A stretch of 64,000 nucleotides of DNA from Devosia oryziradicis (GTDB lineage Bacteria > Pseudomonadota > Alphaproteobacteria > Rhizobiales > Devosiaceae). The DNA is taken from contig NZ_CP068047.1 of NCBI RefSeq assembly GCF_016698645.1, positions 2,825,001-2,889,000 of the forward strand. Reading direction: 5' to 3'. How positions within the stretch are numbered: position 1 is the first letter of the stretch; every line of letters begins with the position of its first letter. Both the position numbers and the translations under genes were made by a program. Positions 2,008 through 59,384 of the stretch are shown piece by piece. The notes below the pieces were generated by a model. The model was not told the DNA's origin. It searched no databases and worked only from the letters and a program-made list of their open reading frames with translations.

Positions 2008-2342
2008 GATTGGCCCCTCTTTAGTCCCAGTTAGACAATCCTCAACGGGGCTGTCCAGTTGCGGCGCGTTTGAGCGAGTGTGTGTGGCAGAGTCAAGGCG
2101 CGGCGGACTTTTCCAGCCAGTTTTGCCTTGCTTCAAGTAGGTTCTTCCCCTATAGCGGCGCCAGCAATTCGTTTGGCCGGGGGCTGAACGGAGGGTTTTT
2201 CGTTTTCACGAATGAGAAATAGGGCTGATGCCCGGCCTCCCGTGTTCCCGCTCTTTGCAAGACTGCTTTGATGCCCTTTCCGGCTTCAAGGAGGCTCCGC
2301 GCCAGGCATTGCTGTGTTGAAACCACGAAGGAAGGCGCATTC
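2008..2342. other. Divergent intergenic region between fabD and rpsF
   Basis: This 335 bp stretch separates fabD (leftward) from rpsF (rightward). It holds a good promoter candidate for rpsF at 2128-2156 and would leave a leader of roughly 180 nt before the rpsF start. Short open frames exist here, but none has a recognisable product or a convincing ribosome-binding site. The AGTCAA at 2091-2096 reads as TTGACT on the minus strand and could be a -35 for fabD, though no good -10 follows it. Confidence 0.6.
2128..2156 (+). promoter_or_regulatory. Candidate sigma-70 promoter of the rpsF operon
   Basis: TTGCTT (2128-2133) and TATAGC (2151-2156) are spaced by 17 bp. The position gives a leader of about 180 nt before rpsF, long enough for autoregulatory RNA structure, as known for some S6/S18 operons. 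The hexamers are seen; promoter function is inferred. Confidence 0.45.
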
Positions 2343-2765
2343 ATGGCCCTCTACGAACATATCTACCTGGCGCGCCAGGACGTTTCCCAGCAGCAGGTCG
2401 AAGAACTGACCGCTGCGCTGACCGAAGTCCTCGCCAATGGCGGCGGCAAGGTCACCAAGAACGAATACTGGGGCCTCAAGGGTCTCTCCTACCGCATCCG
2501 CAAGAACCGCAAGGCGCATTACACGCTGCTCAACATCGACGCAGCGCCGGCCGCTGTTGCCGAGATGGAACGCCAGATGCGCATCAATGAAGACATCCTG
2601 CGCTTCATGACCGTCCGCGTGGACGAGCTCGAAGAAGGCCCGTCGGCAATGATGCAGAAGCGCGATCGCGACGATCGTGATGGCGACCGCGCAGGTGGCC
2701 GTCCGGATCGCGGCGGTGACCGCGGTGGCTTCGGCGGCGGCGAACGCCGTCCGCGTCGTTTCTAA
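2343..2765 (+). CDS. rpsF: 30S ribosomal protein S6
   Basis: A 140-residue protein beginning [15 protein letters not shown], with the S6 fold over about residues 1-100 (motif [11 protein letters not shown]). S6 pairs with S18 on the platform of the small ribosomal subunit and binds 16S rRNA. The C-terminal 35 or so residues are an Asp/Arg/Gly-rich tail with repeated RDRDD and DRGG-like units, as in many alphaproteobacterial S6 proteins. The ATG at 2343 follows GAAGGAAGGCG; a reading starting further upstream adds non-S6 sequence. rpsR follows after 18 bp, so the two are surely co-transcribed. Confidence 0.98.
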
Positions 2766-2783
2766 TTCAAGGACATAAAAGCT

Positions 2784-3038
2784 ATGGCAATCAAAGACCT
2801 TACCACCGCCCAGGCCCGCCGTCCGTTCCAGCGTCGCCGCAAGACCTGCCCGTTCTCGGGCGAAGGCGCGCCCAAGATCGACTACAAGGACGTCCGTCTG
2901 CTCAGCCGTTATGTTTCCGAGCGCGGCAAGATCGTCCCGAGCCGCATCACGGCCGTTTCGGCCAAGAAGCAGCGCGAACTGGCCCAGGCCATCAAGCGCG
3001 CCCGTTTCATCGGCATCATGCCCTACGCCGTCCAGTAA
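2784..3038 (+). CDS. rpsR: 30S ribosomal protein S18
   Basis: An 84-residue basic protein containing the S18 hallmarks [13 protein letters not shown] near the N-terminus and [16 protein letters not shown] in the second half. S18 binds the central domain of 16S rRNA together with S6. It lies 18 bp after rpsF and 90 bp before rplI. In several related Hyphomicrobiales I recall a DUF2232 membrane-protein gene between rpsR and rplI; the 90 bp here is too short to encode it. Confidence 0.98.
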
Positions 3039-3128
3039 GCCGCTGCTTGCTGAACTGCTTGTTGGGGTCCCGGATGGTCCGGGGCTCCTAACCGTCCGCG
3101 AGACGGGACAGCCACAAGGAATACCCCA

Positions 3129-3701
3129 ATGAAAGTCATTCTCCTCGAGCGCGTGGGCCGTACCGGCTCGATCGGCGATGAAGTCTCCGTCAAGGACGGC
3201 TTTGCCCGTAACTTCCTGCTGCCGCAGGGCAAGGCGCTCCGCGCCACGGAAGCCAACCGCAAGAAGTTCGAAGCCGAACGCGCGCACATCGAGAAGCGCA
3301 ACGACGACCGCAAGAATGCCGCTGCCGGCATTGCCGAAGGTCTCAACGGCCGTGAAATCGTGATCATCCGCCAGGCCGGCGAAACCGGCCAGCTCTATGG
3401 TTCGGTCGCCTCGCGCGACGTGGTCGAAGCCCTGGCTGCCGATGGTTTCACCATCCAGCGCTCGCAGGTCGACCTCGCCGACCCGATCAAGTCGGTCGGC
3501 ATCCACACCGTTTCACTGAACCTGCATGCGGAAGTGGCCGTGACGATCTCGGTCAATGTCGCGCGCTCGACCGACGAAGCCGCCCGCCAGTCGGCTGGCG
3601 AGGACGTCACTGTCACCGTCTATGACGACGACGTCGAAGGCGACTTTGCCGCCGGCCAGAAGGACGCGCTGCAGGACGACCGCTTCGACGACGAAGTCTG
3701 A
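3129..3701 (+). CDS. rplI: 50S ribosomal protein L9
   Basis: A 190-residue protein starting MKVILLERVGRTGSIGDEV, the L9 N-terminal domain that anchors to 23S rRNA near the L1 stalk. The long connecting helix (residues about 42-75) and C-terminal domain follow. It is longer than the roughly 150-residue Escherichia coli L9 because of an acidic C-terminal tail ending in an Asp/Glu-rich stretch, common in alphaproteobacteria. It is the last gene of the rpsF-rpsR-rplI unit and is followed within 20 bp by a strong intrinsic terminator. Confidence 0.98.
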   Translation: MKVILLERVGRTGSIGDEVSVKDGFARNFLLPQGKALRATEANRKKFEAERAHIEKRNDDRKNAAAGIAEGLNGREIVIIRQAGETGQLYGSVASRDVVEALAADGFTIQRSQVDLADPIKSVGIHTVSLNLHAEVAVTISVNVARSTDEAARQSAGEDVTVTVYDDDVEGDFAAGQKDALQDDRFDDEV

Positions 3702-3719
3702 GCGTGCCACGATAATCGC

Positions 3720-3754
3720 AAAAGGCCGGGCGAATTGCCCGGCCTTTTGTTTTG
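3720..3754 (+). terminator. Rho-independent terminator after rplI
   Basis: A perfect 12-bp inverted repeat (AAAAGGCCGGGC at 3720-3731 and its complement at 3737-3748) with a five-base loop ends in a T-rich tract. Its A-tract/T-tract symmetry could make it work in both directions, but it lies right after the rplI stop. It closes the ribosomal operon. Confidence 0.9.
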
Positions 3755-3808
3755 CAGCATGGTCCATCGGGTTGTGAGGGTCGGAACGGCCCCGATCCGG
3801 AGTAGGCA

Positions 3809-4255
3809 ATGACGTTTCTCCCCACCAAATTCGCACCGACCGCAGTCGTGCTCGCCGCCCTGTGGGGCGCTATGCTGCCCGCCTCCGCCGCTGATCTGCT
3901 GACGGGCGATTGGCACGGGTCCTATATCTGCTATCAGGGCCTCACGCGGCTGGCGCTGGTCATCATGCCCGATGGCGATCGATGGACAGGCCGGTTCATG
4001 TTCGGGCCCCATGAATCAAACCCGAATGTGCCGTTCGGCTCCTATGATATTACCGTCACGGAGACCGCGGGGGTTTATACGATCATGCCCGGCGATTGGG
4101 TTGACCAACCCGATGGATACGCTGCTGTCGGCGGAAGCGGGACATTGTCGGCCGATATGATGACGCTTTCCGGCAAGGTGAATTTCGATGGCTGCGGCGG
4201 CTTCGAGGTCACGCGACTTACCCCGCCTCCGGCGATAAGCCGCAAGAAGAAGTAG
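3809..4255 (+). CDS. Small secreted hypothetical protein
   Basis: A 148-residue protein of unknown function. Residues 1-28 form a signal peptide with a hydrophobic core and a cleavage-like PASAAD site, so it is likely exported to the periplasm. The mature part starts LLTGDWHGSYICYQG and looks like a small beta-rich domain with Gly/Trp/Asp turns; it contains two cysteines (in YICYQG and DGCGG) that could form a disulfide. The C-terminus ends in Pro-rich then Lys-rich residues. Similar short exported domains opening with G-x-W-x-G-x-Y-x-C are familiar from Rhizobiales proteins, but I cannot name the family. It stands alone between the rplI terminator and dnaB. Confidence 0.6.
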   Translation: MTFLPTKFAPTAVVLAALWGAMLPASAADLLTGDWHGSYICYQGLTRLALVIMPDGDRWTGRFMFGPHESNPNVPFGSYDITVTETAGVYTIMPGDWVDQPDGYAAVGGSGTLSADMMTLSGKVNFDGCGGFEVTRLTPPPAISRKKK

Positions 4256-49040: not shown

Positions 49041-49150
49041 CCCCCTCCTAGCCTCCCCCATCAAGGGGGAGGTACAGCTCCACTCCGTGGCTTGATCGTG
49101 TCCGGCCACAGAACGGCACCTCCCCCTTGATGGGGGAGGCTGGGAGGGGG
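49041..49150. repeat. Large inverted repeat made of two palindromic units
   Basis: A 33-base arm (49041-49073) is repeated in inverted form at 49118-49150 with one mismatch and a 44-bp spacer. Each arm also contains its own palindrome (CCTCCCCC, five bases, GGGGGAGG). It lies between the binding-protein stop and the M24 peptidase start. It resembles intergenic palindromic elements dispersed in alphaproteobacteria. Confidence 0.85.
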
Positions 49151-49250
49151 TGGGGCGACAAGCGCCAGGCTTTTGGTAGGAGCCGGACCGGAGGGACTGA
49201 GCCCGGCTCCTGTGGCGGTGGCGCTTGGGCACCACCGCTGTTCGAGTGGC

Positions 49251-55851: not shown

Positions 55852-58800
55852 CTACCCCGCCTGCGCCATGAGCGTGGCGTTGCCGCCTGCGGCCGTAGTG
55901 TCGATACAAACGTGGCGTTCGACGAGTAGGCGCGCACCCTCTTCCTCTTTAGTCAGCAGCGGGATGATTGCGCCGTGTCGGCCGCTGAGGGCGCGGCGGA
56001 TGGCGCGGAGGTTGGCGTCGTCGGCAAAATAGGCCACGGCGTCGAAGGTTTTGGCGTGGGCCAAGGTGTCGAGATCGAGCTCGGCCAGGATCGCGGTGTT
56101 GCCCAGCATGGCGGCCATGGCGGCCTGGACCTGCTGATCGGCAGTCGTTGGGCCAAGACACAGCAGGGTGCCACGCGGTGCCGTGTGCATGACGTTGCTT
56201 TCCCCGGTAGGCCCGGGGAGCGATAAGGGGGCGGTCTCGGCATGGCCCAGACCCAACGTGAACCGGGGTAGGTAATGCGGACCGCCGGCCTTCGGACCGG
56301 TGCCCGAGAGGCCTCCGCCACCGAAGGGTTGCGAGCCGACCACCGCGCCGATCTGGTTGCGATTGACGTAGATATTGCCGGCACGCACCGTGTTCGACAG
56401 CTGGCGAACACGCGAGGAAATGCGCGTATGAAGGCCGAAGGTGAGGCCGTAGCCGGAGGCATTGATAGCGGCAACCACCGCACCCAGCTCATCGGCCTTG
56501 AAGGTGGCGATGTGGAGGACCGGGCCGAAGATTTCCTCGGCGAGGTCGGCGATGCCGCCTATGCGCAGGACTGCCGGGGCAACGAAAGTGCCGCGCCCCG
56601 GCGTCTTCAAGCGATGAATCAGATTCCCGTTCTTCTCGTAAGTATCGATATGTGCTTGGATTTTTGCGCGGGCCGCTTCGTCGATTACCGGGCCGATGTC
56701 GGTGCTCAGATCCCAGGGATTGCCCAGGGAGAGCTCGTCCATGGCGCCCTTGAGCATCTCGATGGTGCGTTCGGCAGCGTCCTCCTGGACGTAGAGCACT
56801 CGCAGCGCGGAGCACCGCTGGCCGGCCGATTGAAAGGCTGAGGCGAGGATGTCGCGGACTGCCTGTTCGGGAAGCGCGGTGGAATCTACCACCATGGCGT
56901 TGAGGCCGCCGGTCTCGGCGATGAGCGGGACGGTTGGCGCGAGGTGTTCGGCCATGACGCAGTCGATTTTGCGGGCAGTCGGCAGCGAGCCGGTGAAGAC
57001 GACACCGGAAATTGCTGCGTTACTCGTCAGGGCTGTGCCGACTTCGCCGGCTCCAGGCAGCAACTGGACGGCGTCGGTGGGGATTCCCGCCTGATGCATC
57101 AGTTGGACGGCGCGGAAGGCGATGAGCGGGGTCTGTGGGGCTGGCTTGGCGAGGACCGGATTGCCGGCGACGAGGGCGGCGGCAATCTGGCCGGTAAAGA
57201 TGGCGAGCGGGAAGTTCCAGGGCGAGATGGCGGCGATGGGGCCACGCGCTGCGCCGAGCGTTTGGCGCTCCGCCTCGGCGGCGTAGTAGCGCAGGAAGTC
57301 GACCGCTTCGCGAACCTCGGCGACGGCATCCGCCCAGGTCTTGCCCGCCTCGCGGGCGAGGAGCGCGAAGAGTTCGGGGCGGTTGGCTTCGTAAAGATCG
57401 GCGGTCGCCCGGAGGAGTTCGGCGCGGGTGTTGACGGGGGTTTGCAGCCACGTGGAGTTGGTGGCGGCTGATATGGCGGAGGCGACGTCGTCGGGCGTGG
57501 CGTTGGTGACGGTGCCGAGGCGGTCGCTGGGGTCGGCTGGGTTGCTCAGATTAACGGAAGGCCCCCTCACCCGACCCTTCGGGTCGACCTCTCCCCCAGA
57601 GGGAGAGGTGAAGAGCGGTTCGGCGTGCCACTGCGTGGTTTGGAAGGCGGCGCGGGATTTGGACATGGCCGGGAACGCAACCGGGTCAGTGAGGTCGAGC
57701 CCGGCGGAGTTCAGGCGCGGGGCGAAGATGGCTGCGGGGGATGGAATGGCGGGGTTGGGGATGCTGTCCAGCGCCGCGGCCTTGGCGATCGGGTCTTCGG
57801 CCACGGTTGACGCCGGGATGTCTTCGTCTGCGATCTGGTAGACGAATGAGCCATTGGCTCCATTTTCGAGCAGACGACGGACGAGGTAGGCCAGCAGGTC
57901 CTTATGGGCCCCGACCGGGGCATAGATACGCGTACGGGTGCCGGCGGTGGTCCGCAGGACTTCGTGCAGACGCTCGCCCATGCCGTGGAGACGTTGGAAC
58001 TCGTAGGTGTCGGGGGTCCTTCCCGCTTCGGCGGCCATATGGAGGACGGCACTGGCGGTATGCGCGTTGTGGGTGGCGAATTGGGGGTAGATGCTCGCTT
58101 TGGCGAAGAGCCGTTTGGCAGCCGCGATATAGCTAATATCGGTGGCGGCCTTGCGGGTGAAGACCGGATAGCCGTCGAGGCCCATGACCTGCGCGCGCTT
58201 GATTTCGGCATCCCAATAGGCGCCCTTGACCAGCCGGACCATGATGCGGCGATCAAGCGACCTGGCAGTGGCATCGAGCCAGTCGATCAGCGGCAGTACG
58301 CGCTTGCCATAGGCCTGGACGACCACGCCGAAGCCGTCCCAGCCCGCAAGGTCCGGCGTTGCGAGCACGTCGGCGATGATGTCGAGCGAAAGGTCGAGGC
58401 GGTCGGCCTCCTCGGCGTCGATGTTGAAACCCATATTGGCAGCCTTGGCCGCAAGGGCCAGTTTGCGCGTCGCCGGAACGAGTTCCGACATGACGCGGTG
58501 GCGCTGCGCGAATTCGTAGCGGGGATGGAGCGCCGAAAGTTTCACCGAGATACCCGGATTGTCCCGCACGGAGGCCGCGGTGCAGTGTGGGGCCAGGGTC
58601 GCGATGGCGCGCGCGTAGGCGTCGAAGTAGCGGGCAGCATCCGCGCCGGTGCGGGCGGCTTCGCCGAGCATGTCGTAAGAATAGCGGTAGCCCTGCGCTT
58701 CGGGCTTTCTGGCGTTCTGGATAGCCTCGTCGATGGTGCGGCCGAACACGAATTGGCTGCCCAGCAGCCGCATCGCCTGGGCGACCGCCGTGCGGATAAC

Positions 58801-59265
58801 CGGCTCGCCCAGGCGAGCGACCGCGCGATGCAGTGCGTTACGCAGACCGACTTCGGGATCGCCGAGAACGTCGGCGGTAAGGCTCAGCGCCCAGGAGGAG
58901 AAGTTGACCAGGGCATTGGGCGAGCCGCCGAAATGGGCGGGCCAATCGGCACCGCCGACCTTGTCATGGATGAGGGCATCGACGGTCTCCGCGTCAGGGA
59001 CGCGCAGCAGAGCTTCGGCAAGGGACATCAGCGCCACGCCTTCGTCGGTCGCGAGGCCATATTCGGCGAGGAAGCTTTCCATCAAGCCCAGGCGGTTACC
59101 CTTGCGCACCGTGGTGACCAGGGTTTCGGCGTGGGAGGAGATGGCCTTGCGCGCGGTGTCGTCGAGACCGGTGGCGGCAATGAGATCACGGACGAGCGTG
59201 GTTTCGTCCGCGAGGGTGTGGGCGCGGAGGGCCTGGCGGGCGGCGGTGATGCCGGTCTGATTCAT
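55852..59265 (-). CDS. putA: Bifunctional proline dehydrogenase/P5C dehydrogenase PutA
   Basis: A 1137-residue enzyme oxidising proline to glutamate in two steps. The FAD-dependent proline dehydrogenase barrel covers about residues 120-470 (LVKGAYWDAEIKRAQ), and the aldehyde dehydrogenase domain about 600-1010, with Cys818 in GQRCSALRV and Glu in IAETGGLNA. No N-terminal ribbon-helix-helix is present, so it does not repress itself; an Lrp-type gene sits divergently. An in-frame palindromic insert is at residues 552-568 between the domains. Start ATG at 59265 follows ACGGAGCC. Confidence 0.95.
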   Translation of the reverse strand: MNQTGITAARQALRAHTLADETTLVRDLIAATGLDDTARKAISSHAETLVTTVRKGNRLGLMESFLAEYGLATDEGVALMSLAEALLRVPDAETVDALIHDKVGGADWPAHFGGSPNALVNFSSWALSLTADVLGDPEVGLRNALHRAVARLGEPVIRTAVAQAMRLLGSQFVFGRTIDEAIQNARKPEAQGYRYSYDMLGEAARTGADAARYFDAYARAIATLAPHCTAASVRDNPGISVKLSALHPRYEFAQRHRVMSELVPATRKLALAAKAANMGFNIDAEEADRLDLSLDIIADVLATPDLAGWDGFGVVVQAYGKRVLPLIDWLDATARSLDRRIMVRLVKGAYWDAEIKRAQVMGLDGYPVFTRKAATDISYIAAAKRLFAKASIYPQFATHNAHTASAVLHMAAEAGRTPDTYEFQRLHGMGERLHEVLRTTAGTRTRIYAPVGAHKDLLAYLVRRLLENGANGSFVYQIADEDIPASTVAEDPIAKAAALDSIPNPAIPSPAAIFAPRLNSAGLDLTDPVAFPAMSKSRAAFQTTQWHAEPLFTSPSGGEVDPKGRVRGPSVNLSNPADPSDRLGTVTNATPDDVASAISAATNSTWLQTPVNTRAELLRATADLYEANRPELFALLAREAGKTWADAVAEVREAVDFLRYYAAEAERQTLGAARGPIAAISPWNFPLAIFTGQIAAALVAGNPVLAKPAPQTPLIAFRAVQLMHQAGIPTDAVQLLPGAGEVGTALTSNAAISGVVFTGSLPTARKIDCVMAEHLAPTVPLIAETGGLNAMVVDSTALPEQAVRDILASAFQSAGQRCSALRVLYVQEDAAERTIEMLKGAMDELSLGNPWDLSTDIGPVIDEAARAKIQAHIDTYEKNGNLIHRLKTPGRGTFVAPAVLRIGGIADLAEEIFGPVLHIATFKADELGAVVAAINASGYGLTFGLHTRISSRVRQLSNTVRAGNIYVNRNQIGAVVGSQPFGGGGLSGTGPKAGGPHYLPRFTLGLGHAETAPLSLPGPTGESNVMHTAPRGTLLCLGPTTADQQVQAAMAAMLGNTAILAELDLDTLAHAKTFDAVAYFADDANLRAIRRALSGRHGAIIPLLTKEEEGARLLVERHVCIDTTAAGGNATLMAQAG
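57562..57612. repeat. Palindromic repeat element inside putA, translated in frame
   Basis: Within putA a short block contains two adjacent palindromes (CGACCC-TTC-GGGTCG at 57572-57586 and CCTCTCCC-CCAGA-GGGAGAGG at 57588-57608). Read as protein it gives SPSGGEVDPKGRVRGP, a sequence style seen when dispersed palindromic elements are captured in frame. It falls in the linker between the two catalytic domains, where an insert would be tolerated. Confidence 0.75.
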
Positions 59266-59384
59266 TATGGCTCCGTATCTTGCAATCACGATCATGATAA
59301 TACCGTGACCTCAGCAGGCGTTTCGCCTGATATGGTGGCGCATGGCAGCGCGAAGCGTTATCGTGAAGGCCAGCGACAGGATAA

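Follow-up and report, generated by a model that had tools for sequence, protein, structure and literature searches.

The window analyzed here, a 64-kb stretch of the Devosia oryziradicis genome, carries on its minus strand a putA gene whose identity is supported by the NCBIfam equivalog model NF008869 (1372 bits against a cut-off of 747). A palindromic unit of a dispersed repeat, here called family A, lies in frame inside this gene, and a doublet of a second kind lies elsewhere in the window:

55852..59295, minus strand: putA, bifunctional proline dehydrogenase / L-glutamate gamma-semialdehyde dehydrogenase, 1147 codons, open throughout
57558..57615, minus strand: family A unit, 58 bp, in frame in putA, its ends set by dispersed copies
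57587..57609, minus strand: hairpin 1 (outer), 9-bp perfect stem with 5-nt loop, conserved in family A
57572..57586, minus strand: hairpin 2 (inner), 6-bp stem, differing in sequence and length among copies and mostly still palindromic
49041..49152, minus strand: B2 doublet, two inverted palindromic units with a spacer, outside putA (G000:C1:2874041-2874152)

A first-pass annotation of this stretch had described two palindromes read in frame within putA, between the proline dehydrogenase and aldehyde dehydrogenase domains. The palindromes are real, with stem arms at 57587-57595 / 57601-57609 (hairpin 1) and 57572-57577 / 57581-57586 (hairpin 2, loop TTC), and the frame is open across them. Since the Pfam match to Pro_dh (residues 191-486) ends at 486 and that to Aldedh (582-1013) starts at 582, the insert falls between the two. 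The annotation's 51-bp element was correctly positioned but too short, as dispersed copies define the 58-bp unit; likewise, its 16- to 17-residue insert at 552-568 marks this same place in a numbering that starts at Met-11, whereas the unit is actually translated as LFTSPSGGEVDPKGRVRGP(S), about 19 residues at 561-580 of the 1147-residue frame.

Within the window, the outer-stem pattern has one exact match and three matches at up to three mismatches, against an expectation of 0.03; apart from the exact match, these are both arms of the repeat at 49041-49152. The 31-base core of the insert occurs once, with 0 expected. The predicted RNA fold of the insert (-33.9 kcal/mol) is ordinary for its composition (z = -1.19; 27 of 200 shuffles fold equally well), so it is copy number, not fold energy, that marks the putA palindromes as beyond chance, and fold energy was rejected as a sign of function.

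The linker that holds the insert is 28 residues long in the window and mostly 18-23 residues in genes that lack a repeat, making the net gain only about 5-10 residues. Across the genus, linkers without a recognizable repeat range from 9 to 23 residues (32 in G040) and those with a repeat from 27 to 58, figures that leave out the G050 row, which caught an upstream insert, and G066, which has no row. The spread of 9-23 residues among repeat-free linkers indicates that changes in length are tolerated. An AlphaFold2 model of PutA built on 40 sequences matches solved PutA structures in its fold (mean pLDDT 80) and places residues 564-576, below 50, between strands at 556-558 and 580-584. This weakly suggests that the insert forms a floppy or disordered loop, because five other inner segments score equally low (147-152, 477-483, 824-829, 977-1001 and 1029-1033, with 824-829 in the conserved dehydrogenase core) and few of the 40 aligned sequences contain the insert.

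Family A inside and outside genes

The insert had been read as a translated member of an intergenic repeat family, with a genome search for other copies proposed as a check, and that search bore the reading out: BLAST (E <= 0.01, against extracted genome stretches plus the window) returned 63 matches at 39 loci, 37 of which lie outside genes by a coding-score test. A search of the 3.5-Mb genome with the unit and short flanks yields at least 66 matches at E <= 1, the best dispersed copy being 97% identical over positions 4-63 of the 66-base query. Dispersed copies delimit the unit as AAGGCCCCCTCACCCG ... GGTGAAGAG, with a conserved outer stem and an inner stem that varies in sequence and length and is mostly palindromic; five of the 39 loci match the outer hairpin only. 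True inverted pairs occur at 22 of the 39 loci (matches on both strands were found at 24, from which L138 and L145 were left out because one palindrome matched on both strands), and the putA copy is a single unit. At E <= 1e-4, 59 of the 75 genus genomes contain family A, and 44 of 199 genomes of the order do so; in both surveys copy counts are lower bounds because at most 12 candidates per genome were scored in the genus survey and at most four in the order survey, as they are in D. oryziradicis itself, where 40 of 46 first-look candidates were scored.

To decide which copies are genic, codon usage was scored on both sides of each copy in the frames crossing it, with no use of annotation. Both flanks score for three frames: putA (191/173), a 603-codon frame at L113 (102/64) and a 1033-codon frame at L123 (170/91). 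The last was rejected by hand as a third genic copy, because it runs antisense to a pair of long frames on the plus strand (694-1956 and 2071-3996), and the repeat pair falls between these or at their ends; L135 and L141 were also rejected, as only one flank has a coding score. The two genic loci that remain among the 39 are both in frame and both between domains. The frame at L113 is CydD (TIGR02857, 553 bits against a cut-off of 435):

L113:1053-2861: cydD with an in-frame family A repeat pair

The repeat pair in cydD separates the ABC membrane region (24-272) from the ATPase domain (396-542). Of 57 matching genomes, 30 were read for this gene, and the pair or its remains are present in six of the 30 cydD genes, that of D. 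oryziradicis included. The inserts measure 84-153 bp, and the one in G037 has another palindrome, CCCCGGACTTGATCCGGGG, nested within the repeat pair with the frame still open. Filled genes lack part of the native linker, most clearly in cydD. Family A is read in one frame in putA and in other frames in cydD, which argues that the encoded peptide is not what is kept.

The putA insert at 57563-57611 (minus strand) also resembles the Rfam family whalefall-1 (RF01762), sharing in the alignment a conserved CUCUCC/GGGGAGAG hairpin, a variable second hairpin and a GGGUGAGG end. The family A score of 23.2 bits falls below the 37-bit gathering cut-off, and none of 20 stretches of the D. oryziradicis genome with family A copies reached that cut-off. 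Whalefall-1 differs too in that part of PMC2864571 describes it as a noncoding RNA confined to environmental sequences. Matches at E <= 0.01 were obtained in 29 of 199 genomes of the order and in none of 14 control genomes. Four genomes of the order have 14-21 places each (G253, G230, G136 and G144 also show the likeness), the cut-off is exceeded at nine places in two genomes, and about five inverted pairs are visible. Whalefall-1 may be no RNA gene but a palindromic repeat, in which case at least one Rfam 'sRNA' would belong among such repeats. Separately, a 4.2-kb stretch with a repeat pair also holds a TPP riboswitch at L125:3286-3384, which at 54.7 bits only just passes its cut-off of 54.3.

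Different repeats in one PutA linker

A PutA match (E <= 1e-100) was found in 67 of the 75 genus genomes and in eight there was none. Seven genomes with more distant or partial PutA were left out (G002, G012, G017, G022, G024, G057 and G058), and the 63 putA rows were reduced by seven that were broken or duplicated (G001, two pieces each of G034 and G043, G052 and the second G004 copy), leaving 56; G066, broken at the end of the linker yet readable, was counted. The expectation that relatives would lack the insert was borne out for most of them: 42 of the 56 linkers have no recognizable repeat. Family A is not confined to D. oryziradicis, as it also occupies the same place in three other genomes, and ten more carry other repeats there. 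Among the 14 filled linkers, family A is found in four (D. oryziradicis, G037, G036 and G003), a half-unit of family B, termed B1, in six (G065, G013, G014, G067, G074 and G066), a B2 doublet in three (G016, G050 and G049) and a C2 doublet in one (G026). The 32-residue linker of G040 has the length of four B1 cases and no recognizable repeat, and is perhaps a decayed copy.

Of these other occupants, B1 and B2 are likewise dispersed, B1 at 16-66 places or more in each of five genomes and B2 at 53-74 places in each of four, the latter with palindromes partly counted on both strands. The B2 doublet in the window, an 84% match to the putA insert of G050, is the form found inside putA of G016, G049 and G050. 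By the coding-score test, none of 20 B2 stretches in the D. oryziradicis genome is genic, a set that leaves out at least five further places and the window copy.

Genome G050 carries a second in-frame insert, a B1 unit about 50 residues upstream of the main site, and G034 has a B unit at the same upstream place, at a contig end. When A, B1, B2 and C2 were compared by BLAST with the 63 putA frames, matches fell only at about 510-518 and 560-574 (window PutA numbering), both between Pro_dh (486) and Aldedh (582), and no repeat of these four kinds was found elsewhere in PutA. Conservation of the segment across distant genera, which the first-pass annotation had named as evidence against capture, was not observed: among the best 80 of 341 named contig loci, a set that overlaps the genus set, six have a repeat (five labelled Devosia and one alphaproteobacterial MAG), and none was seen by eye in the linker of other genera. 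Two draft contigs, G034 C4 and G043 C12, end in the interdomain part of putA, one of them just past a B-type repeat, and repeats may thus break assemblies there.

The reading of the insert as a captured repeat is therefore confirmed, and by far the most probable explanation is that a single unit of a non-autonomous, dispersed REP-like repeat inserted into the variable PutA linker, at a site that recurrently tolerates such capture. A unit of the palindromic repeat would have entered the linker that joins the proline dehydrogenase part of PutA to its aldehyde dehydrogenase part, and would have been retained because it has no stop in the frame used, keeps the length of the gene in frame and lies where changes in length are tolerated. 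We infer that the repeats are mobile and the insert neutral. The same linker, taken by other repeats in other Devosia, is then a recurrently tolerated capture site, and in cydD another one lies where the membrane domain gives way to the ATPase domain.

Number of entries and alternative histories

All 14 filled linkers fall within one part of the PutA tree, as they would if one ancestral insertion in a Devosia subclade had been inherited vertically and later lost, decayed or partly replaced. Such a history, which would leave the capture itself standing, draws further support from the family A junctions, both of which coincide in the window genome, G037, G036 and G003 (with one 3-nt difference in G003); this coincidence counts against separate entry, since one old insertion would give the same. 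Cross-matches show that B1, B2 and C2 have hairpin sequence in common, and the cydD inserts share their right junction and lack identical native residues. We consider a single ancestral insertion improbable, however, because family A is unlike family B in both sequence and position, and A, B1 and B2 each occur as scattered copies in genomes. On a PutA tree of 56 taxa with the linker removed, Fitch parsimony requires nine changes for the five states (10 if G040 is scored as B1) and six for presence or absence of a repeat alone, with several nodes weakly supported; the cydD tree requires four for repeat presence. In addition, the empty cydD genes of G013 and G014, sisters of the filled G036 and G037, keep PLADIKP-like residues also seen in distant species, so that these linkers look never to have been filled.

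The identity of the inserts themselves also weighs against a single old insertion. In putA, all 19 same-family insert pairs (G066 and G026 left out) are more alike than the third codon positions of the gene. Measured against all positions in the rest of the gene, 17 pairs are higher, one equal and one lower; within 130 codons, a fairer comparison because a frameshift in G014 depresses its gene-wide figures, 14 are higher, three equal and two lower. The excess is large for pairs involving the window putA and small in most B pairs. Against G003, the window insert is 0.91 identical, compared to 0.53 at third positions and 0.77 at all positions of the gene (0.49 and 0.76 locally), and against G036 it is 0.93 identical, compared to 0.81; the nearest flanks of the window pairs are about as alike as the gene and not raised. 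In cydD, all 15 insert pairs exceed third positions, and against the rest 11 of the 15 are higher (two by 0.01), three equal and one lower. These identities are inflated to some extent, because inserts were grouped by likeness and decayed copies (perhaps G040 and G021) were left out. Judged from these comparisons, simple neutral vertical inheritance of one insert fits poorly, as all 19 putA pairs exceed third positions, and separate insertions from conserved pools, or conversion by dispersed copies, fit better than one old neutral insert.

The patchy distribution and high insert identity could instead mean that filled alleles passed among Devosia species through homologous recombination over a short tract, the capture again standing as such. 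Third positions near the insert are raised between G050 and G049 (0.77 compared to 0.64 gene-wide) and between G065 and G014 (0.75 compared to 0.62, the latter figure being depressed by the G014 frameshift). For the window putA with G036, G037 and G003, however, third positions near the insert (0.46-0.64) are about the same as gene-wide (0.53-0.62), and we regard spread by recombination as an unlikely account.

Under repeated capture, at least two entries at the main putA site are firm, those of family A and family B, and there were probably four or more; B1, B2 and C2 are unequal in length and sequence yet cross-match, so that one form might have arisen from another and they may or may not be separate entries. 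We speculate, as a tentative and rather doubtful extension, that certain interdomain linkers (PutA, CydD) act as exchange cassettes, in which repeats of different families enter time and again, displace part of the native linker and are then held to the likeness of the dispersed copies by gene conversion, the linker being rewritten by the genome's repeats rather than by point mutation.

Both genic copies in the D. oryziradicis genome lie between domains, which could also be expected if the insert were kept for a benefit, such as a hairpin in the mRNA that delays ribosomes where two domains meet and aids co-translational folding. In G036 putA, both inner-stem arms have changed relative to D. 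oryziradicis, altering three residues, and the palindrome is kept. However, the inner stem is broken in G037, so the palindrome is not always kept, and the many linkers without a recognizable repeat, the ordinary fold energy and the differing frames in putA and cydD, which show that at least the peptide is not kept, all speak against a benefit. Tolerance alone predicts the same places, and retention for a benefit is thus very improbable. With 75 genomes available for the genus, in-frame capture becomes countable, datable and comparable with empty sites, which makes it testable whether proteins simply tolerate selfish palindromes or are shaped by them. Linker differences between orthologues, moreover, can be repeat DNA.

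Comparison with known palindromic repeats

Family A is REP/REPIN-like in being a short palindrome with many, mostly intergenic copies and frequent inverted pairs. REPINs, which go with a RAYT transposase, are inverted pairs of palindromic units at many loci, and family A resembles them in this arrangement. Unlike REPINs and GTAG REPs, it resides in a genome with no match to Y1_Tnp (PF01797), so RAYT was rejected as the mover of the repeats; the same search found matches in three of the 75 genus genomes and in five of 14 control genomes. The GTAG tag is absent on both strands of 57558-57615, as is the CGTC tag.

In-frame capture of palindromes is already known, from Rickettsia RPEs and from intragenic REPs. 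RPEs are palindromes of 105-146 bp read in frame in conserved Rickettsia genes, according to parts of PMC2229807 and PMC10969869, and the presence of family A inside the conserved genes putA and cydD is alike. The two differ in length (a 58-bp unit here, 84-153 bp in cydD), in the lack of a CGTC tag and in genic share, which is two of 39 loci here and nearly half in R. conorii as given in part of PMC10969869. The CGTC REP/RPE tag (variants TGTC and CCTC) is described in part of PMC3733652 as lying beside a stem that starts with two A-T pairs, whereas in family A the outer stem starts A-T, C-G, with GTCG or CTTC before it. The putA insert is accordingly neither an RPE nor a CGTC REP, a distinction drawn from the terminal tag as described in that portion of PMC3733652 and not from RPE sequences.

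Literature searched at the level of titles and abstract openings, with subscription papers outside its scope, gave no report of the Devosia putA case among papers on palindromes in Devosia, on palindromic insertion in PutA or on independent same-site insertion. A close likeness is to intragenic REPs of the GTAG and CGTC families, which part of PMC3733652 presents as short, mostly intergenic palindromes, often in head-to-head pairs and sometimes in genes, a description that also suits family A. The same portion of that source proposes flexible linkers as neutral places for intragenic REPs and notes that recB of X. campestris and recB of X. oryzae carry different REPs at roughly one site, so that same-site capture has precedent. 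Unlike in those cases, one Devosia linker holds two families in four forms across the genus, one genome has an additional site within putA, and cydD provides a further one. Capture of a repeat in a tolerant linker is thus ordinary in kind; the notable part is that different repeats occupy one linker, which lifts the putA case above a curiosity.
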